Assembly (NCBI GenBank): GCA_003153505.1
Contig: PLZA01000074.1
Coordinates: 143,824-207,823, forward strand
Length of the DNA: 64,000 nucleotides
Reading direction: 5' to 3'
From: Candidatus Dormiibacterota bacterium
GTDB taxonomy: Bacteria > Chloroflexota > Dormibacteria > Aeolococcales > Aeolococcaceae
A program made the translations under genes and the position numbers. Below the pieces are notes generated by a model, which made no database searches, was not told where the DNA came from, and saw nothing but the letters and a program-made list of their open reading frames with translations. Position 1 is the first letter of the stretch. Each line of letters starts with the position of its first letter. Below are positions 20,733 to 42,954 of the stretch, in pieces.

Positions 20733-21968
20733 TTGATCCGGCTCCTCATCGTCGACGACATCGCGAGCACTCGGGACAACCTGCGCAAGCTGCTCGGGTT
20801 CGAAGAGGACATCGAGGTCATCGGCACTGCCGGCGACGGCAAGCAGGGCCTCGAAGAGGCGCACCGCCTGCTTCCCGACATCGTGCTCACCGACGTGAAC
20901 ATGCCGATCATGGACGGGATCCAGCTCACCGAGCGGCTGGCTCAGGAGTTGCCCGGATCCCCGGTGATCATCATGTCCGTCCAGGGGGAGCGCGACTACC
21001 TCCGGCGCGCGATGCAGGCGGGGGCCCGCGAGTACCTGATCAAACCCTTCAGTCACGACGAGCTCGTGGCGGCGATTCGCCGGGTGCATCAGCTCGAGGA
21101 GAAGAAGGGCACCTTCGCGAAAGCAGCAGCCCCAGACGGGACTGGCGCCCCGCGCCCGGCCGCCCTCGGCGAGGTGATCGTCCTGTTTTCGGGCAAGGGA
21201 GGCGTCGGCAAGACCCTGCTCGCGACCAACCTGTCGGTCGCGCTCGCCGTCGAGACCGAGTCCCGCGTGGCGCTGGTCGACCTCGACCTCCAGTTCGGGG
21301 ATATCGGCGTGATGCTCAACCTCGATCACAGCAGGAGCATCACCGACGTCGTGGACTCGGAGACCCTCGAGCCGGAGATGCTCAATGAGATCATGGCCCA
21401 GGGGCCGAACGGGGTTCGCGTCCTGCTCGCGCCGATCAGCCCCGAGCTCGCCGACCTGATCACCAGCGACCACGTTCGCATGGTCATGGCGGAGCTGCGC
21501 AAGACGTTCGATTACGTGGTGGTCGACACCTCGTCCCATCTCGCCGACTTCAACCTCGAGGTCATCGAGTCCGCACAACATGTTCTCGTGGTGACCGCGC
21601 TCACGATCCCGGCGATCAAGGACGCGAAGCTGGCGCTCAAGGTGCTGGAGTCACTCACGGTCGACCCGAGCGCCGTGCTCCTGGTGGTGGACCGCAGCGA
21701 CTCGCATTCCGACTTCAACAAGGACTCGATCGAGCAGAACCTCCGCCAGAGCGTCGGCGCCCAGATCCCCTACGACCCGCGCGTGGTCGGCGACTCGATC
21801 AACCGAGGGATTCCCTTCGTGATCTCGAGCCCTGAATCGGACATCAGCCGCTCCATCCGCGAGCTCGCCGGTGCGCTGGTTCCGGGCGGCGGTGGTCAGC
21901 CCGTGGGTGCCGGGGTCGGCGCCGCCAAGGCCGACGACAAGCGCAAGCGGCGGATTTTCGGCCGCTAG
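20733..21968 (+). CDS. Receiver domain + MinD/ParA-type ATPase (CpaE/TadZ-like), copy 1
   Basis: REC: LLIVDDIAS, VLTDVNMP, YLIKPF; ATPase: [20 protein letters not shown] start 13 nt after rplA. Confidence 0.87.
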   Translation: MIRLLIVDDIASTRDNLRKLLGFEEDIEVIGTAGDGKQGLEEAHRLLPDIVLTDVNMPIMDGIQLTERLAQELPGSPVIIMSVQGERDYLRRAMQAGAREYLIKPFSHDELVAAIRRVHQLEEKKGTFAKAAAPDGTGAPRPAALGEVIVLFSGKGGVGKTLLATNLSVALAVETESRVALVDLDLQFGDIGVMLNLDHSRSITDVVDSETLEPEMLNEIMAQGPNGVRVLLAPISPELADLITSDHVRMVMAELRKTFDYVVVDTSSHLADFNLEVIESAQHVLVVTALTIPAIKDAKLALKVLESLTVDPSAVLLVVDRSDSHSDFNKDSIEQNLRQSVGAQIPYDPRVVGDSINRGIPFVISSPESDISRSIRELAGALVPGGGGQPVGAGVGAAKADDKRKRRIFGR

Positions 21969-23218
21969 TCGCGAGCGAAGCCGAGCCGGCGCCGGCTCCG
22001 CTTCTTGCCGGGTTGTTCGGCGGAGGATTCCGGACCGGCGTCGCCGGTGAGCGCGGCGGCGAGACGCTCGAACGCGGCGGTGGCGGGGGAGGAGTGGCCA
22101 CCGATCACCACCGGGACACCCGAGCTCACCGAGCCACCGATCGCCATGGCGTCGTGGGGAATCTCCGCCGCGACCGGGTGACGCAGAAAGTCCTCGATCC
22201 GGGCTCGGTCCATCCCGCCCGCAAGTGGGGCATCACGGTGATTGGCGACCACGACAATGCGCTCGGGGTCCACCTGGAGCACGCCGATCACCGACATGAT
22301 CAGGCGCGTGTTCTTCACCGAGGTGACGCTGAAGTCGGTGACCAGCACGATGTGATCGGAGTTCTCGAGCGCCTCGAGGGTGATCTCCGACAGCTGCGAG
22401 GTCGTGTCCGCGACCACGAGCTCGAAGCTGGCGCGAAGCTCGGCCACGAGGGAGCGCAGGTGCGCGGTGGTCACGTAGTCGGCAAGCTCGGGGCTCGGCG
22501 GCGCCGCCAGCACGGTGAGCCCCTGTGGTCCCAGCGTGAGCGCCTGCTGGATCACGTGGCGATCGGTCATTCCCGCGTCACTTGCGGCGAACTCGGCGAT
22601 CGACCCGTCGGGAGTCATCGCGAGCAGCGCAGCCACATCGCCGAACTGGAGCGAGAGGTCCACGAGGACCACGCTGCCCGGGTGGGGACGGTTGAGCACC
22701 AGCGACAGGTTGGTCGCGATGATCGATTTGCCGACACCGCCCTTTCCCGAGACGATCGTGATCATCTTTCCTGCGCGACGCCGGGACCCGTCGACGGCTG
22801 GGGCGCCACCGTTCGACGGGTCTCGGACTGCCTGGGCGGCGCGCTTGCGCGCCTGGAAGGCATGAACGCGGTGGATCGCAGCGACGAGGTCATCGCCGGC
22901 GAACGGCTTCTGGAGGACCTCGCGGGCGCCGGCGAGCATCGCCCTCCGGAAGAGCTCGCTGCCACTTTCCATCGACATCAGGATCACGCCGGCCTGGGGG
23001 GCGTACTCCGCGAGCATCTCGGTGGTCTGAACGCCGTCGAGGCCGGAGAGCCCGGCGTCGAGCACCGCGATGTCCGGCACGAGGTGCAGGGCCTCCTGGA
23101 GCGCGTGCTCGCCGTCCTCGGCGGTGCCGCAGACAGTGATGTCCTCCTCGGCGGCGAGACGGCGTATGAGGTTGGCCCGAATCCGCTCACTCCCGTCGGC
23201 AACCAGCACGCGAATCAC
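21965..23218 (-). CDS. Receiver-like domain + MinD/ParA-type ATPase (CpaE/TadZ-like), copy 2
   Basis: [44 protein letters not shown]. Confidence 0.87.
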   Translation of the reverse strand: MIRVLVADGSERIRANLIRRLAAEEDITVCGTAEDGEHALQEALHLVPDIAVLDAGLSGLDGVQTTEMLAEYAPQAGVILMSMESGSELFRRAMLAGAREVLQKPFAGDDLVAAIHRVHAFQARKRAAQAVRDPSNGGAPAVDGSRRRAGKMITIVSGKGGVGKSIIATNLSLVLNRPHPGSVVLVDLSLQFGDVAALLAMTPDGSIAEFAASDAGMTDRHVIQQALTLGPQGLTVLAAPPSPELADYVTTAHLRSLVAELRASFELVVADTTSQLSEITLEALENSDHIVLVTDFSVTSVKNTRLIMSVIGVLQVDPERIVVVANHRDAPLAGGMDRARIEDFLRHPVAAEIPHDAMAIGGSVSSGVPVVIGGHSSPATAAFERLAAALTGDAGPESSAEQPGKKRSRRRLGFARD

Positions 23219-23227
23219 GGCGCCACC

Positions 23228-24493
23228 TTACCTCCGCCCCAGGCTGAATCGGCGCCGGTAGACGGGCGGCGCCGGCGCGGGCAGCTCGATCGCCGTCTCA
23301 TCTCGGGTGGCTCCATCACCCCTGACCAGCTGACTCAGGGCGACGAGCCGGCGGGCGAGCTCGGCACGCGGCTGCGCGAGCACGATCGGTGTGCCGGAGT
23401 CGAGTGAAGGGTCCACCCGCGGGTCGTACGGGAGATCGATGAGGATGGTTCTGCCGAGGATCTCCTCGATGTCCTCGCGGCGGTAGTTGGTCCGCGGGCG
23501 GGTGTGGTTCAGGACCACGTCGACTCGGTCCATGTCGACGCCGAGCGCCTCGAGGAGCAGCAGGGTCGCTTTGGTCCCGCGCACGGCACTCAGGTTGTAG
23601 CTGGTGACCAGCAGGATGCGATCGGCGAGCTCGAAGGCTTCCAGGACGCGCTCATCCAGATGCGAGGGCGTGTCGATGACGACGACCGCATGTGCCCGGG
23701 CGGTTGCCCTGACGATCGCGCGGAGGCCCGCGGCCGTGATCGTCTCGGCAAGCTCCGGGCTCGACGGGGCGCGCAGAACCCTCAGCTCGGCGGGGCCGGT
23801 GGCGAGGACGGCGTCCAGCAATGAGTTCTCGATGTCCTCGCCGTGCGCCGCCAGGTCGGCGATCGAGAGCAGGTGGTTGTCGACATGGAGCATGCCGGCG
23901 GCGTCGCCGAACTGGAGATCCGTGTCCAGGAGCGCCGCTCGTCCGCCGCCACCGTCGGCAAGGGCCGCGGCGAGGTTGATGGCGACCATCGAGGTGCCGG
24001 TCCCACCCTTCCCGGAAAAGGTCACCACCACCGCTGCCCGGCCCCGAGGCGTCCGCACCTCGCGACGGTCAGTGTCGATGTTGCCCTCTGCAGTGCCGTC
24101 TGCCGTCTCGCCGCCGCTGCCCGCGTTTCGCGGCGGGAGGACCCCGGCGGCGACGCGGATCGCATGGAGCAGCTCCGGGCCCTCCACCGTCTCGGCGACC
24201 GCTCCGACGGTCCAAGCCGGCCCGGCCCGGGCCGGACTGTCCCCGCCAGTCATGAGCAGCACGCGGGTTGCCGGCGACACCGATCCGAGGTGCGCCGCAA
24301 AGTCCGCCTGGGGCAGCTCGGTGAAACGCTCATGCAGCACCAGGACATCGGGCTGGCGCAGCCAGGCTTCCTCGATGACCGCGGACGCCTGGTGTGCAAC
24401 CCCGCACACGTCGATGACGTCGGCGTACGGCTTGAGCTTCTCGAGGTCGCCGACGATTCGAGCGATCTCGTCCGCGATGAGTACGCGGATCAC
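23228..24493 (-). CDS. Degenerate receiver + atypical MinD-like ATPase (CpaE/TadZ-like), copy 3
   Basis: GTG start (VIRVLIADEIARI); LVLHERF at phospho-Asp position; FSGKGGTGTSMVAINLA atypical Walker A. Confidence 0.82.
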   Translation of the reverse strand: MIRVLIADEIARIVGDLEKLKPYADVIDVCGVAHQASAVIEEAWLRQPDVLVLHERFTELPQADFAAHLGSVSPATRVLLMTGGDSPARAGPAWTVGAVAETVEGPELLHAIRVAAGVLPPRNAGSGGETADGTAEGNIDTDRREVRTPRGRAAVVVTFSGKGGTGTSMVAINLAAALADGGGGRAALLDTDLQFGDAAGMLHVDNHLLSIADLAAHGEDIENSLLDAVLATGPAELRVLRAPSSPELAETITAAGLRAIVRATARAHAVVVIDTPSHLDERVLEAFELADRILLVTSYNLSAVRGTKATLLLLEALGVDMDRVDVVLNHTRPRTNYRREDIEEILGRTILIDLPYDPRVDPSLDSGTPIVLAQPRAELARRLVALSQLVRGDGATRDETAIELPAPAPPVYRRRFSLGRR

Positions 24494-24594: not shown

Positions 24595-24630
24595 TAAAAA
24601 GAGGAGCCGGCCCGATGGCCAACTCCTCTT
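24595..24630 (-). terminator. Rho-independent terminator downstream of flp pilin gene
   Basis: On the minus strand AAGAGGAGTTGGCC-ATCG-GGCCGGCTCCTCTT followed by TTT(TT)ATT; 14-bp stem with two G-U pairs. Confidence 0.88.
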
Positions 24631-24654: not shown

Positions 24655-24855
24655 CTACGAGGCCAGGCCGTTGCTGATGTTCGAGAACACGTTGTTGACC
24701 TGCTTGCCGACGACTTGCAGGATAACGATAACGACGATGGCGATAAGGACGAGGATGAGCGCATACTCAACCATGCCCTGGCCTTCCTCAGCCTCCTCAC
24801 GCTTGCGAGCGATGAACTCTGTTGCGCGAAGGTACAGGGTGCTCAGCATATCCAT
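24655..24855 (-). CDS. Flp family type IVb pilin
   Basis: EEAEEGQGMVEYALILVLIAIVVIVILQVVGKQVNNVFSNI; ATG at 24855 preceded by AAAGGAGGTGA (track ORF starts at a GTG inside the SD). Confidence 0.92.
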   Translation of the reverse strand: MDMLSTLYLRATEFIARKREEAEEGQGMVEYALILVLIAIVVIVILQVVGKQVNNVFSNISNGLAS

Positions 24856-25089
24856 TCCGTTTTTCACCTCCTTTCGGGTTGTATTTTCGAGGCCGAGACG
24901 ATTGCTCGGACCCGACTGCTGCGAGTGTGGACCCCTGCTGCTGCAACGGAATGGCCTGCGTGCTAAATATTGGTAACGAAGGATCGGACACGCGGCGGAC
25001 GGTGCTCGGGCAACGAGAAATCGTGGTGATTCGATGACAACCGCGCTACGAGAGCGTCGCTCTGAATTGGCCTGACCTAGACTCCGGCC

Positions 25090-25809: not shown

Positions 25810-26547
25810 ATGGCAAAGCTTCGCGCCCAGCCGACCGATGCTAAGGTGGATGAGATGACGGTCACAGCGTCCACGCATCCCTGCACCCAGGGAGGCTGCA
25901 CGTCCCAGGACGGCGCACCGTGCGAGTACGTCGACCGTCGCGGTCGTGAGTGCCGCACCGCGTGGTGCATCGAGCACCGGGTCACCATCGAGGACCACGT
26001 CTACTGCCGCCGCCACGCTGGTGTCGTCAGCGCGCTGCCGAGCCTCGACAGCTCGCTCGCGGTGTCGCTCCCGGATCTCGACAACCGGGCGCCCTCACTG
26101 GTCGGCTGGGTATCCAGGCAGATCGACGGCGACGTCTGGCGTCTGCTCCTCAAAGAGCTCTCATCGGGCAGTGGTGGTCAGCTCGTGGCCGACCCGGTCA
26201 CGCTGATCTTCGTGGGCATCGGCCGGCAGCGCGCATGGGAGCGCGCCTGGCGCCTGGACAGCCACATCGGTATCGCCCACCGGGTGAGCATCGTCGTCGA
26301 GGAGCTCGATGACACGATGATTACCGTCAAGGTCGGCGGGAACACGGTCGAACAGCTGGTACCCCCGTGGATCCAGCACCGTGTGCGTGGCGAGACGGTC
26401 GCCCCCGAGGAGGACCGCAAGGAGCGCGAGGAGTTCTATCAGCGGGTGCTGGACTCGATCGAACGCGGCCTGGGGCACGAACGGGACCTCTCCCACTACA
26501 TGTCAGAGGGTCGCCTCAGCACCCCCCAGGGTGGAGCGGGGGCGTAA
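25810..26547 (+). CDS. Hypothetical protein with Cys/His-rich N-terminus
   Basis: CTQGGCTSQDGAPCEYVDRRGRECRTAWCIEHRVTIEDHVYCRRH; ATG immediately follows preceding TAG. Confidence 0.7.
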   Translation: MAKLRAQPTDAKVDEMTVTASTHPCTQGGCTSQDGAPCEYVDRRGRECRTAWCIEHRVTIEDHVYCRRHAGVVSALPSLDSSLAVSLPDLDNRAPSLVGWVSRQIDGDVWRLLLKELSSGSGGQLVADPVTLIFVGIGRQRAWERAWRLDSHIGIAHRVSIVVEELDDTMITVKVGGNTVEQLVPPWIQHRVRGETVAPEEDRKEREEFYQRVLDSIERGLGHERDLSHYMSEGRLSTPQGGAGA

Positions 26548-26549
26548 TC

Positions 26550-26939
26550 ATGACCCGGGGCAGCATTCTCATCGTCGACGACGACCCCAGGCTTCTGCAC
26601 ATCGTCGCGATGTACCTCGGTATCGAGGGGTACGACGTGTCCACGGCCGAGAACGGCGAGGACGGTCTCGCGCAGGTCGAGGCGCGTGCTCCCGACCTCG
26701 TGATCCTCGACATCATGATGCCCGGCATGGACGGTATCGAGACCTGCAAGCGCATCCGCAGCAACACACCGACCGCCGACGTGCCCATCGTGATGTTCAG
26801 CGCGCTTTCGAGTGACGACGACATCGAGCGTGCCCGGCTCGCCGGGGCCAATCACCTGATCACCAAACCGTTCAACCTCGTCGGGCTCGGTTCGGTGGTC
26901 AAGACCTTCTTCCCAGCGGACGTCGGCTCGGCCCGCTGA
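26550..26939 (+). CDS. Single-domain response regulator (receiver)
   Basis: ILIVDDDPR, LVILDIMMPGMDG, MFSALSS, HLITKPF. Confidence 0.88.
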   Translation: MTRGSILIVDDDPRLLHIVAMYLGIEGYDVSTAENGEDGLAQVEARAPDLVILDIMMPGMDGIETCKRIRSNTPTADVPIVMFSALSSDDDIERARLAGANHLITKPFNLVGLGSVVKTFFPADVGSAR

Positions 26940-28430: not shown

Positions 28431-29375
28431 TCAGCCGCCGGAGCCGAACTGGTGGGCAACCTCGATGACCGCCGGGCCGAGCAGCACGATGAACAGGGTC
28501 GGGAAGATGCACCCGACCATCGGGAAGAGCATCTTGAGCGGCGCCTTCTGGCCCTGCTCCTCTGCGCGCTGACGGCGCTTGCGCCGGATCTCCTCTGACT
28601 GGATGCGGAGGACGTTGGCGACGCCAACCCCGAGCTGTTCGGACTGGATGATCGCCTGGATGAAGTTGCTCAGCTCCTCGACCTTGCACCGGCGTCCCAC
28701 ATCGTCGAGCGCCTCGAGACGTGGACGGCCGAGGCGCACCTCGTTGAGCATGATCGTGAGCTCTCGCGAGAATTCGTTGTTGTACTTGTCGACGACCCGA
28801 GTGAGCGCCGCATCGAAGCTGAGGCCAGCTTCCACGGAGATTGTCAGCAGGTCGAGCGCGCTCGGCAGGGCGAGCAGGATCTCCTTCTGACGCTTCTTGA
28901 TGCGTCGCGCGACCACCATCTGAGGCGCGAGGTAGCCGAGGATGAGGCCACCCAGCGGCACCACCGCGAAGAGCGGCATCGCAAGCGCGCCCAACAACGC
29001 CAGCGCGAGCCCGATCGCCGTGAAGAGCAGCATGGAGAGCAGCCGGAGAGCGAGGAACCCGGATGCGTTGAGCCCCCATGGGCGTCCCGCGAGGTTCAGC
29101 TTCTCCTGGAGGGCGTCGGTGCTCCCCTGACCCTGGTTGCGGTTGAGGCGATTGCCGACCTTGTCCAGGAATGGACGCACCACGCGGTCGAAGAGCGGGA
29201 GCGACATCTCGACTTCCGCGAGCGTTGCGGGCGCACGGCCGGCTTCGGCGAACTGGGCGAGGCGCGCTTCGAGCAGATCGCCCTGGCGCGGGGAGACCGA
29301 CATCGCCAGGCCGAAGGTGATGAGCAGAATGCCACCGCCGAGGGCGGCTGCAAGACCGATGGCAAGAAGGCTCAC
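28431..29375 (-). CDS. tadC: Type II secretion F-family protein, TadC-like
   Basis: LPSALDLLTISVEAGLSFDAALTRV...LGVGVANVLRIQSEEIRRKRRQRAEEQGQKAPLKMLFPM. Confidence 0.87.
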   Translation of the reverse strand: MSLLAIGLAAALGGGILLITFGLAMSVSPRQGDLLEARLAQFAEAGRAPATLAEVEMSLPLFDRVVRPFLDKVGNRLNRNQGQGSTDALQEKLNLAGRPWGLNASGFLALRLLSMLLFTAIGLALALLGALAMPLFAVVPLGGLILGYLAPQMVVARRIKKRQKEILLALPSALDLLTISVEAGLSFDAALTRVVDKYNNEFSRELTIMLNEVRLGRPRLEALDDVGRRCKVEELSNFIQAIIQSEQLGVGVANVLRIQSEEIRRKRRQRAEEQGQKAPLKMLFPMVGCIFPTLFIVLLGPAVIEVAHQFGSGG

Positions 29376-29376
29376 G

Positions 29377-30357
29377 TCAGACCTCGATCTTCACGATCTT
29401 CTGGATCGCGACCGCACCGACGGCGATCGAGAAGATCGCCATGCCGAGCATGATGTGACCGAGCGGGTCGGTGATCATCGGATCGAAATACGTCGGTGAG
29501 ATCAGCGCGAGAAAGCCCGCGAGCGCGATCGGCAGGATGGTGATGATCCAGCCCGACGCGCGCGCCTGCGCCGTCAGGGTCCTGATCTCGCCCTGGATGC
29601 GAACGCGTTCGCGAATCGTGAAGGCGATCGTGTCGAGGATCTCGGCCAGGTTGCCGCCGACCACGCGCTGGATCTGCACGGCGGTGACCATGAGGTCGAA
29701 GTCCTCGGACTTGTTGCGCACCACCATGTGGTTGAGCGCCTCGTCGACATTGATGCCGAGCGCGATCTCACGTGTCGCTCGGGCGAACTCTTCCGAAATC
29801 GGCGGGTTCGCGTTCTTCGCCACGGAGGCCAGCGCCTGCGCGAACGAGTGACCGGCTTTCAGCGCATTGCTCAGCAGCATCAGCGTGTCGCCGAGCTGAT
29901 TGTTGAACGCGCGGGTGCGCCGCTTCTGGCGGAACTTCAGGAAGAAGCCGCTGAGGAAGTACACGACGATGGGGCAGGGGATGAACGCGATCGGTGACCC
30001 GTAGCGGAAAGCGACGAGCAAGCCGACCAGGATGCCCAGACCGACGACGGCGAGGAGCCACTCCGACGACTTCAGCTTGAGGTCGGCCTTCTGGAGATCG
30101 TCCGCGAGCTTGCCGGTGTGCGACGTGCGCGAGAGCAGGGGGTTGAGGCCGCTGGTCAGCGCGTCGAGCAGGTCTCGCAGCGCGTTGCCCGTCTTGACCC
30201 GAGGAGGCGTGGTGACTACCACCGTATCGCCGCCGTACTGGTTCAGGCGCCGCGCCATCTCCCCAGCCTGGTTCTGCCCGCGGCTGAGGAGGAAGGCGAA
30301 GATCGAGAGGACTGCCGACGCGGCCAGGGCCGCTGCGACGACTGCGGCTGGCGTCAT
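29377..30357 (-). CDS. tadB: Type II secretion F-family protein, TadB-like
   Basis: LGDTLMLLSNALKAGHSFAQALASVAKNANPPISEEFARATREIALGINVDEALNHM; ATG at 30357. Confidence 0.87.
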   Translation of the reverse strand: MTPAAVVAAALAASAVLSIFAFLLSRGQNQAGEMARRLNQYGGDTVVVTTPPRVKTGNALRDLLDALTSGLNPLLSRTSHTGKLADDLQKADLKLKSSEWLLAVVGLGILVGLLVAFRYGSPIAFIPCPIVVYFLSGFFLKFRQKRRTRAFNNQLGDTLMLLSNALKAGHSFAQALASVAKNANPPISEEFARATREIALGINVDEALNHMVVRNKSEDFDLMVTAVQIQRVVGGNLAEILDTIAFTIRERVRIQGEIRTLTAQARASGWIITILPIALAGFLALISPTYFDPMITDPLGHIMLGMAIFSIAVGAVAIQKIVKIEV

Positions 30358-30362
30358 GTGTG

Positions 30363-31214
30363 TCAGCCGCCGAAGAGACTGTCCAGCGTGCCCGCGGTCA
30401 CGATGGTCTGCTTCACCGACGGGACGCTGATCGTTCCGGCCGGCTCGTAGTTCGGGGTGTAACCGGTTGCAGTGAGCTTGCCCCACTCAGACTGGGGACG
30501 AAGGACGTATTTGACAACGAACTCGTGGCCGTCGCCGATCACCAAACCGGAGAGCAACGGCGCCTCGGCGCGCGGGACTTCAACGAGGAGCACGTCCGAT
30601 GCGCCCGCACTGGTGGTCCCGGACGTCCCGACACGAAGCACGATGAGGTCCTGGAAGGTGTAGCGAATGCCCTGGGTGCCGTTGGTCGACATCACGAGCA
30701 TGTCGAGGTGGTCACCGGGCAGGATATAGAAGGCATCCGACACGAGCGCGCCCGTGAAGTTGTTCTGCTGCAAGGCGGTGAACGACGTCGGGATGGACGC
30801 GTTGGTGGGGATGGCCACTGCAACATAGCCCTTGGTGATCTGCGTCTCCACCGAGACGGCCGCCGAACCGGCCGCGCTGCTCGACGTGATCGAGAGCGCC
30901 GGAGTCGAGAAGAAGCCAGGAACCAGCGGAGTGTTGTTGGCGAGCGCGACCTGCGTGACCTTGCCGACAACGGCGACAGGATCGGTGTATGCATCGCCCG
31001 GCTTTGCCGCAGCCGGTACCTGGGTCACGAGGACCATCGCGGGTGTCAAGGTGGTGCCGGCGGGAATGCTGGTATCGGACACGACAACGCTGACTTCGTT
31101 CGCAGGTGCGTTCGAGCGCACCAGCAGCAGCACGGCAACCGCCGCCGCCGCAGCCAGCACGACTCCAAGAAGCAAGAAGATTCGGCTGTTCGGTTTGTTC
31201 GCCTGGATGGCCAC
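30363..31214 (-). CDS. cpaB: Flp pilus assembly protein CpaB (RcpC)
   Basis: SAF-like VSVVVSDTSIPAGTTLTPAMV...VTQVALANNTPLVPGFF. Confidence 0.83.
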   Translation of the reverse strand: MAIQANKPNSRIFLLLGVVLAAAAAVAVLLLVRSNAPANEVSVVVSDTSIPAGTTLTPAMVLVTQVPAAAKPGDAYTDPVAVVGKVTQVALANNTPLVPGFFSTPALSITSSSAAGSAAVSVETQITKGYVAVAIPTNASIPTSFTALQQNNFTGALVSDAFYILPGDHLDMLVMSTNGTQGIRYTFQDLIVLRVGTSGTTSAGASDVLLVEVPRAEAPLLSGLVIGDGHEFVVKYVLRPQSEWGKLTATGYTPNYEPAGTISVPSVKQTIVTAGTLDSLFGG

Positions 31215-39838: not shown

Positions 39839-41440
39839 ATGTCGTTGCTCGACCGAGTGCAGCGGAAAGCAGAGGGAACTCCCCCGTCTTCCGCACCCAG
39901 CGCGCCGTCGCCGTCTGCTCCCCCCGGGGCGCCGGATCGCCCCTCTGACGACGGAGCTGAACCGTTCCCTCCGGCCGGCTGGCAGAATCGCCCCGGTGGC
40001 GTCTCGCCGGCGCCGGTGCCGGCAACTCCCGCGCCCGCGGCGCGGCCGTTCGAGGTCGAGCGACCGGCGCCCGCCCCTGAACCGCAGCGCGCCCCGACCC
40101 TGCTGAACCGCGCCGGCGGTATGCGCCCCGGACTGAGCAAGATGGGTGGCCACGTCAACACTCACGTGGCGTTGCGTGGCAAGGTGCACCAGCGCCTCGT
40201 CGAGGAGCTCGCCCAGGGCACCGACTCCGTACCACCCGAGGTCGTCCGCCAGCGTATCGCCGAGCTGCTCAACGACGTGATCACCGAGCAGAACATCACG
40301 ATGAGCCGGCCCGATCGTCTCCGCCTCGTCGAGATCCTCATCAATGACGTGCTCGGTCTCGGACCGCTCGAGGAGCTGCTCGCGAGCGAGGACATCACCG
40401 AAATCATGATCAACAGCTACAAGCAGATCTACGTCGAGCAACACGGCAAGCTGACGCTGAGCCCGGTGACGTTCGAGAGCGACCAGCAGCTGATGCAGGT
40501 CATCGACCGGATCGTCAGCAGCATCGGCCGCCGCGTCGATGAGTCGTCGCCGATGGTCGACGCGCGCCTCAAGGATGGGTCCCGCGTCAACGTGATCATT
40601 CCGCCGCTCGCGCTGCGTGGACCGACGATGACCATCCGAAAGTTCGCCAAAGAGGCGCTGACCATCGATGACCTGATCAAATACGGATCGATCACGGAGG
40701 ACATGGTTCGCTTTCTTCGCGCATGTGTGCGCGGGAAGATGAACGTCGTGGTCAGCGGCGGCACCGGCTCGGGAAAGACGACCACGCTCAACATCCTGAG
40801 CGGCTTCATCCCCGAGGACGAACGCATCGTCACCATCGAGGATGCGGCCGAGCTCCAGCTTCGCCAGGATCATGTGGTCACGCTGGAGACACGTCCCGCG
40901 AACGTCGAGGGCCGTGGCCGCGTGTCGATTCGCGACCTGGTGATCAACTCCCTGCGCATGCGGCCGGACCGCATCGTCGTCGGAGAATGTCGTGGTGGTG
41001 AAGCGCTGGACATGCTCCAGGCGATGAACACCGGCCATGATGGATCGCTGACGACGCTCCATGCGAACAATGCGCACGACTGCATCAGCCGTCTGGAAAC
41101 GCTGGTCCTGATGGCGGGCGCGGAGCTGCCGTCGCGCGCCATCCGCGAGCAGATCGGCTCGGCGGTCAACGTCGTTGTGCAGCAGTCCCGCCTCCGCGAC
41201 GGAACGCGCAAGATCGTCAGCATCACCGAGGTGCTCGGCTGCGTCAACAACGAGGTCAAGCTCCAGGACATCTTCACCTACAAGCAGGTTGGCGTCGACG
41301 AGGATGGCAAGGTGGTCGGGTCCTACATGCCGACCGGGGTCATCCCGACGTTCCTCGATCATCTGAGCACCTCCGGCGAGCAGCTCTCCGAGGACATCTT
41401 CCAGCCGATCCACGTGATGGACGGGGTCGGCTCGGCCTGA
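39839..41440 (+). CDS. cpaF: Type II/IV secretion ATPase, CpaF/TadA (copy 1, long form)
   Basis: VVVSGGTGSGKTTTLNILSGFIPEDERIVTIEDAAELQL...RMRPDRIVVGECRGGEALDMLQAMNTGHDGSLTTLHAN. Confidence 0.94.
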   Translation: MSLLDRVQRKAEGTPPSSAPSAPSPSAPPGAPDRPSDDGAEPFPPAGWQNRPGGVSPAPVPATPAPAARPFEVERPAPAPEPQRAPTLLNRAGGMRPGLSKMGGHVNTHVALRGKVHQRLVEELAQGTDSVPPEVVRQRIAELLNDVITEQNITMSRPDRLRLVEILINDVLGLGPLEELLASEDITEIMINSYKQIYVEQHGKLTLSPVTFESDQQLMQVIDRIVSSIGRRVDESSPMVDARLKDGSRVNVIIPPLALRGPTMTIRKFAKEALTIDDLIKYGSITEDMVRFLRACVRGKMNVVVSGGTGSGKTTTLNILSGFIPEDERIVTIEDAAELQLRQDHVVTLETRPANVEGRGRVSIRDLVINSLRMRPDRIVVGECRGGEALDMLQAMNTGHDGSLTTLHANNAHDCISRLETLVLMAGAELPSRAIREQIGSAVNVVVQQSRLRDGTRKIVSITEVLGCVNNEVKLQDIFTYKQVGVDEDGKVVGSYMPTGVIPTFLDHLSTSGEQLSEDIFQPIHVMDGVGSA

Positions 41441-41784: not shown

Positions 41785-42954
41785 CTAGGCGACGCCGCTG
41801 AGGTGACCGTTCTTCTCGGTCGCGACCCCGACCTGCCGGCGGTCGGGGAAGATCTGCGCGAGGCGAGGCGGCAGCGGGATGCCCATGTCGAACAGCCTGT
41901 CGATGATTCGCGGCCGGATGCCCGTCGGCTCGAAGTCGCCGATGATCTTGCCGGTCGACGGATCTGCGCCTCGGGACTCGAACTTGAAGATCTCCTGCAC
42001 GGTGATCATCTCGCCCTCCATCCCGATGACTTCGGTGATGGACACCACCTTGCGCGACCCGTCCTTGAGGCGGTTCAGCTGGATGATGAGGTTGATCGCG
42101 CCGGCGATCTGCTGACGGATCGCCTTGAGCGGCAGATCCAGACCGGCCATGAGCACGAGCGTCTCGAGCCTCGACAGAGTCTCGCGTGGGCTGTTCGCAT
42201 GGATCGTGGTCAGAGAGCCGTCATGGCCGGTGTTCATCGCCTGGAGCATGTCGAGGGCTTCACCGCCACGGCACTCTCCGACGACGATGCGATCGGGTCG
42301 CATGCGCAGGGAGTTGATGACCAATTCGCGGATCGCGATGCGGCCTTCGCCGTTGACATCGGCGGGACGAGCTTCGAGACGGCAGACGTGCTCCTGGTGC
42401 AGCTGCAATTCCGCCGCGTCCTCGATGGTGACGATGCGTTCGTCGATGGGGATGAACCCCGAGCAGACGTTGAGCAGCGTCGTCTTTCCAGTGCCGGTTC
42501 CGCCCGACACCAGGATGTTGGCGCGGGCGAGCACGCAGGCCTGGATGAAGGCTGCGGCTTCCTGGGTCATCGTTCCGAACCCGATGAGATCGGAGACCTG
42601 GTACGGGTCCTTGCTGAACTTTCGAATCGTGAGAATTGGACCGTCGAGCGCAACCGGCGGAATGGCCGCGTTCACGCGGGATCCGTCGAGCAGACGCGCA
42701 TCCATGAGCGGTGTGCGCGAATCGATGCGGCGGCCGACCGCTGCGCCGATAGTGTCGATCACGCGCATCAGGTGCGCCTCGTCGTCGAACCTGATGTCCG
42801 TGAGGAGAATCTTGCCCTTGCGCTCCACGTAAACCATCTCTGGTCCGTTGACCATGATTTCGGTGAGGCTGTCGTCATCGACCAGTGGACGCAGTGGGCC
42901 CAAAGCCTCGAGATACCGGCTGTCGAGCTTCTGCGAGACGGCTGCCATGCTCAC
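41785..42954 (-). CDS. cpaF: Type II/IV secretion ATPase, CpaF/TadA (copy 2, short form)
   Basis: ILVSGGTGTGKTTLLNVCSGFIPIDERIVTIEDAAELQL...VVGECRGGEALDMLQAMNTGHDGSLTTIHAN. Confidence 0.94.
   Translation of the reverse strand: MSMAAVSQKLDSRYLEALGPLRPLVDDDSLTEIMVNGPEMVYVERKGKILLTDIRFDDEAHLMRVIDTIGAAVGRRIDSRTPLMDARLLDGSRVNAAIPPVALDGPILTIRKFSKDPYQVSDLIGFGTMTQEAAAFIQACVLARANILVSGGTGTGKTTLLNVCSGFIPIDERIVTIEDAAELQLHQEHVCRLEARPADVNGEGRIAIRELVINSLRMRPDRIVVGECRGGEALDMLQAMNTGHDGSLTTIHANSPRETLSRLETLVLMAGLDLPLKAIRQQIAGAINLIIQLNRLKDGSRKVVSITEVIGMEGEMITVQEIFKFESRGADPSTGKIIGDFEPTGIRPRIIDRLFDMGIPLPPRLAQIFPDRRQVGVATEKNGHLSGVA

Follow-up and report, generated by a model that had tools for sequence, protein, structure and literature searches.

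The closest described relatives of the proteins considered here are CpaE of Caulobacter and TadZ of Eubacterium rectale (PDB 3fkq), the docking ATPases of Tad pili, which also position the pili. Caulobacter CpaE has been modelled as six dimers placed around the CpaF hexamer, with dimer-dimer contacts that probably run from one receiver (REC) domain to another, and the protein carries a C-terminal amphipathic helix (PMC13170226). What the receiver of CpaE does in Tad pili has yet to be settled; recent tomography goes no further than to suggest that the ring of CpaE is held together by its receivers. A Tad machine normally has one CpaE or TadZ protein, whereas the locus described here has three paralogs side by side, of which one adjoins the rplKA genes.

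The locus lies in a 64,000-nt stretch of a Candidatus Dormiibacterota genome (contig PLZA01000074.1), which is referred to throughout as the window. A preliminary description had placed three CpaE/TadZ-like receiver-MinD paralogs between positions 20733 and 24493, and both the Pfam matches and the alignment bear this out; the motifs quoted for copies 1, 2, and 3 also proved correct when aligned. Searches of the PDB and Pfam returned MinD and TadZ, with 3fkq aligned over both domains, and four features expected of the family are present: a MinD domain with a deviant Walker A motif, a receiver or receiver-like N-terminus, a tad/cpa gene context, and the characteristic pattern of the C-terminal tail. 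The CpaE family itself is ordinary; it is the multiplicity that is unusual. We think it probable that the copies are three specialised paralogs of the Tad docking ATPase CpaE/TadZ, serving what is apparently one Tad machine.

The three genes and their Tad neighbours

Copy 1 (20733..21968, + strand) has a TTG start and encodes 411 aa, and its assignment draws on Pfam, alignment, its ortholog group, its single-copy counterpart in sister families, and a structural model. Copies 2 (21965..23218, - strand, 417 aa) and 3 (23228..24493, - strand, 421 aa) both begin with GTG and are assigned by Pfam, alignment, and membership of clades with support of 100, to which a structural model is added for copy 3. 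The N-terminal start MIR(L/V)L is common to all three CpaE proteins, and in the alignment copies 2 and 3 are 41% and 33% identical to copy 1, respectively. The trio is adjacent, as had been stated, but the earlier account missed the strands: copy 1 converges on copies 2 and 3, and the genes do not form one co-oriented row. Copies 1 and 2 have stop codons that overlap as CTAG (21965..21968), a palindrome assigned to neither strand.

Each side of the trio is attached to a different set of genes. Copy 1 begins 13 nt after rplA (ribosomal protein L1; 20009..20719, + strand; Pfam Ribosomal_L1, E 1.6e-65; same order in relatives), the last gene of secE-nusG-rplK-rplA. The usual rplKA-rplJL cluster is split in this genome, with rplJ (L10) located about 50 kb from rplK-rplA (G000:C23:213621-213899), and the place after rplA is occupied by a pilus gene, cpaE copy 1. 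On the - strand, copies 3 and 2 are arranged in tandem, 9 nt apart, downstream of a Flp pilin gene (24655..24867, - strand; Pfam Flp_Fap, E 1.2e-9, above cut-off). Between the pilin gene and copy 3 lies a strong intrinsic terminator (24599..24630, - strand) with a 14-pair stem and a T tail. Most loci of the family have this terminator too, with stem changes compensated between genera, and it is likely a means of producing pilin in quantity and CpaE sparingly. Expression of copy 1 probably differs from that of the pair, since copy 1 would ride with the ribosomal genes while copies 3 and 2 would depend on read-through of the Flp terminator.

The tad locus of the window is dispersed. The Flp pilin gene shares the - strand with genes for a TadC-like platform protein (28431..29375), a TadB-like platform protein (29377..30486), both assigned by Pfam T2SSF and a genome search, and a CpaB-like protein with a SAF domain (30363..31214; Pfam SAF, TIGR03177 below cut-off). 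Two CpaF-type ATPases are encoded further along. The first, a CpaF/TadA motor ATPase (39839..41440, + strand; Pfam T2SSE, E 4.3e-65), is orthologous to TadA of the tad operons of sister families, and the second, CpaF/TadA-like (41785..42954, - strand; Pfam T2SSE, E 1.8e-61), is orthologous to the second TadA of those operons. Two ATPases of the CpaF/TadA type are thus found near one TadB/TadC set, and since the tad operon of the sister families also has a TadA pair, possession of two motors may be the ancestral state of the Tad system in the class. Flp pilin genes number 8-9 in the genome, on different contigs, despite the one TadB/TadC set. In most of the family's genera, two further genes accompany the Flp/CpaE cluster: the first (25810-26547, + strand) encodes a protein of 245 aa whose start is rich in Cys and His and which has no Pfam match, and the second, adjoining it (26421-26939, + strand), a single-domain response regulator.

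A genome search found exactly two T2SSF genes, one TadB and one TadC, in the source genome, a draft that is 92% complete and from which a second TadB/TadC set could be missing. With this single set, all three CpaE copies likely act on one platform, and a single Tad machine is probably served by all three, to judge from a genome of that completeness. This count also bears on a rather doubtful alternative, in which the copies do not mix and each is used singly, at a different time, with a different pilin or at a different site, copy 1 being expressed constitutively alongside the ribosomal genes, and copies 2 and 3 together with pilin. Such separate use would suit the different transcription units (copy 1 just after rplA, copies 3 and 2 after pilin and terminator) and the 8-9 Flp pilins of the genome. 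It sits poorly with the only TadB/TadC set, and independent roles would not have needed the three genes to stay adjacent through the family.

Conservation and descent of the triplet

Gene order was compared across 61 related genomes. Conservation of the triplet in relatives, which the preliminary description had left to be checked, is found in the family, where the copies make up three ortholog groups: copy-3-like, copy-2-like, and copy-1-like genes occur together in the same order and orientation, with all three on one contig in six genera (g1, g6, g10, g12, g13, and g14) and two of the three adjacent, at contig ends, in g2 and g7. Copy 2 is present in 8 genera, in 22 of the 32 genomes of the family. 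Similar adjacent triplets were not found elsewhere in the phylum, where the 22 genomes with 3-4 strong matches carry them on separate contigs or at distances of tens of kb.

In sister families there is mostly a single CpaE gene, which lies in a tad operon of the ordinary kind. In sister families f2 and f3, and also in the basal genera of the family itself (g8 and g11), the copy 1 ortholog occupies the cpaE place of an Flp-CpaB-CpaE-TadA-TadB-TadC operon, while in the derived genera it sits behind secE-nusG-rplK-rplA instead of in the tad operon. In a phylogenetic tree, copies 2 and 3 each form one clade with support of 100, and both clades fall inside the CpaE proteins of the class. On this tree, whose branches are long, the paralogs would have arisen by duplication within this bacterial class. 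In genus g9, copy 1 is at its new position without copies 2 and 3, and the Flp gene directly faces it; on the copy 1 tree, the absence of the other two is best read as loss.

Receiver and MinD domains

The HMM search that had been suggested earlier was run, and Response_reg matched copies 1 and 2, with AAA_31/ParA/CbiA above the Pfam cut-off in all three copies; copy 3 has the ParA/AAA_31 match only. At the key positions of the receiver the alignment reads DD/D54/S82/K104 in copy 1, D-G/D/S/K in copy 2, and D-E/H/T/E in copy 3. The residue set of two-component receivers is therefore complete in copy 1 (D8, D9, D54, S82, and K104), whose receiver is nearly frozen, being 99.8% identical within the genus, with a dN/dS of 0.004 and all five key residues kept. 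The receiver of copy 2 is 95.9% identical within the genus and retains D8 and the Asp, Ser, and Lys, lacking the second acid in the window's genus, where that residue is G (as in copy 2 itself) or A; it is E in most other genera. Copy 2, whose acidic pair was earlier called partly eroded, is accordingly hardly eroded.

Copy 3 is different. His occupies its phospho-Asp position and Glu its Lys site, and neither residue needed for a phosphorylatable receiver was found among the copy-3 proteins: the phospho-Asp is absent from 19 of 19, across every genus, with H, Y, S, N, G, or R in its place, and the switch-position Lys is absent from all. Judged on these alignments, copy 3 is a true pseudo-receiver protein, clade-wide. 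The predicted structure keeps the strand order of a receiver and aligns with 3fkq over both domains, though helix alpha4, seen in the model of copy 1, is missing. The stepwise loss proposed for the trio thus holds for signalling, in copy 3 and in every genus; for the ATPase motifs it does not, as the Walker A survey below makes plain.

All three receivers are under purifying selection (dN/dS 0.004, 0.05, and 0.19 for copies 1, 2, and 3), as are the MinD domains (0.03, 0.04, and 0.13). Copy 3 is the fastest-evolving copy, its receiver being 79% identical within the genus versus 99.8% for copy 1. Taken together with the loss of copies 2 and 3 from g9 and the highly degenerate Walker A of copy 3 in g3 (SGGAGTS), this rate gives some encouragement to the idea that copy 3, and perhaps copy 2, is a degenerating duplicate of little function. 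We consider such decay improbable, given that the copy 3 reading frame is open in every genus, that its receiver fold is still predicted, that dN/dS is 0.13-0.19 in its two domains, and that within the genus the first 60 residues of its receiver, where purifying selection is strongest, show 83-100% identity. In two assemblies (G001 and G006) copy 3 is split; real domain fission was considered and rejected, the break being an NN in these assemblies.

The linker of copy 3 is variable. A long, low-complexity insert rich in Pro, Ala, and Glu separates pseudo-receiver from MinD domain in g6, g12, and g13 (loci L052, L059, and L066) and is absent in the window's genus. These inserts suggest new partners, and many cargos are positioned by ParA/MinD proteins, so copies 2 and 3 might be imagined to work off the pilus, positioning other cargo as orphan ParA/MinD proteins do, with an adjacency that is historical only. 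This is highly improbable, since in all complete loci of the family copies 2 and 3 lie directly behind the Flp gene and less than 7 kb from TadB/TadC.

The Walker A motifs of copies 1, 2, and 3 (KGGVGKT, KGGVGKS, and KGGTGTS) all fit KGGxGxS/T, and that of copy 3 keeps the signature lysine and has lost the Walker lysine. A sequencing error at GGTGTS, which had been raised as a possibility, is excluded by the presence of KGGTGTS in 5 of 5 complete copy-3 orthologs of the genus; the MinD halves of the two others read KGGTGTS and KGGTGAS. The Walker A motif was also surveyed in 40 CpaE proteins, each taken from a genome of the phylum that has a single strong match. At the Walker position, 14 of them have R, 12 have C, 8 have T, 2 have S, and only 4 have K, so that the lysine is lost in 36 of 40, and the signature lysine is kept in 40 of 40. 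Similar motifs are found further afield: the Walker lysine is likewise absent from Chlorobium 3ea0 (KGGDGGS), Liberibacter crescens CpaE has KGGVGSS, also without it (PMC8513845), and PMC10482377 reports that E. rectale TadZ hydrolyses ATP without either lysine.

Since loss of the Walker lysine is common in CpaE of the phylum, the motif of copy 3 is no ground for calling it a pseudo-ATPase, and that label was rejected, the same substitution being found in 36 of the 40 proteins from single-CpaE genomes. Loss of the Walker lysine with retention of the signature lysine is in fact what CpaE proteins of this phylum usually show, a caution against pseudo-ATPase calls made from the motif alone. Within the family the Walker lysine is lost from copy 1 in g7, g13, and g14 and from copy 3 in g1, g13, and genome G020; falling on one copy or the other by genus, the loss does not track the pseudo-receiver. 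In copy 2 of g14, Q replaces the signature lysine. A rule that the Walker lysine is lost only beside another, intact copy was suggested by the class, where the single-copy proteins of f2 and f3 all keep K, but the phylum survey contradicted it.

The proteins of all three groups terminate in a tail that is basic and hydrophobic (KRRIFGR, RRRLGFAR, and RRRFSLGR), which in the window reads KRKRRIFGR in copy 1, KKRSRRRLGFARD in copy 2, and YRRRFSLGRR in copy 3. The tail resembles the membrane anchor of MinD. Its pattern is matched in 73 of 75 proteins, versus 0-7% of internal windows, and it agrees with the amphipathic helix reported at the C-terminus of Caulobacter CpaE (PMC13170226). All three copies, then, retain the signature lysine and the basic, hydrophobic tail, and copy 3 has permanently lost the phospho-acceptor.

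Assembly on the Tad machine and known relatives

If the three paralogs do serve one machine, all of them would be expected to dimerise through an ATP sandwich, to bind the membrane through the C-terminal tail, and to dock on CpaF in a ring like that described for Caulobacter. A response to phosphorylation would be expected of copy 1 and, probably, of copy 2, and copy 3 would act as a constitutive subunit or as a partner in receiver-receiver contact. Mixed-copy assembly is plausible because there is a single TadB/TadC set, and it is possible, though we put it forward only tentatively, that a mixed CpaE ring forms around CpaF in which copies 1 and 2 give phosphorylation control and copy 3 a constitutive contact, the composition of the ring setting pilus placement or motor state. 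Several points tell against a shared machine. Genus g9 has copy 1 and Flp without copies 2 and 3, so that a Tad locus can persist in their absence; copy 3, as the fastest-evolving copy, could be drifting; and with 8-9 Flp pilins the genome could also make other filaments.

What merits specialist attention is the conservation of the triplet and the pseudo-receiver found clade-wide, and not the loss of ATPase motifs. Copies that are switchable, nearly switchable, and permanently unswitchable, apparently in one machine, amount to natural variants with which phospho-signalling could be separated from structural contact. Because one copy is without its phosphorylation switch in all genera examined, the parts played by mixed copies can be put to the test.

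MinD and FleN/FlhG have the MinD fold, the ATP-sandwich dimer, and a C-terminal amphipathic tail as the copies do, but are without a receiver domain and handle other cargo. Ssd, the actinobacterial CpaE homolog (TIGR03815), combines a receiver-like N-terminus with a MinD domain in a pilus-linked gene context; all three copies score far under its curated cut-off (57-61 versus 154.45 bits). The ParA-family ATPase 3ea0 of Chlorobium tepidum gives the best match by sequence and one of the best by fold, and resembles copy 3 in keeping the signature lysine in the absence of the Walker lysine, though its solved chain, unlike the copies, has no receiver domain. Caulobacter CpaE and E. rectale TadZ share with the copies both the tad gene context and the C-terminal membrane tail; the receiver of E. 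rectale TadZ is atypical, whereas those of copies 1 and 2 look phosphorylatable.
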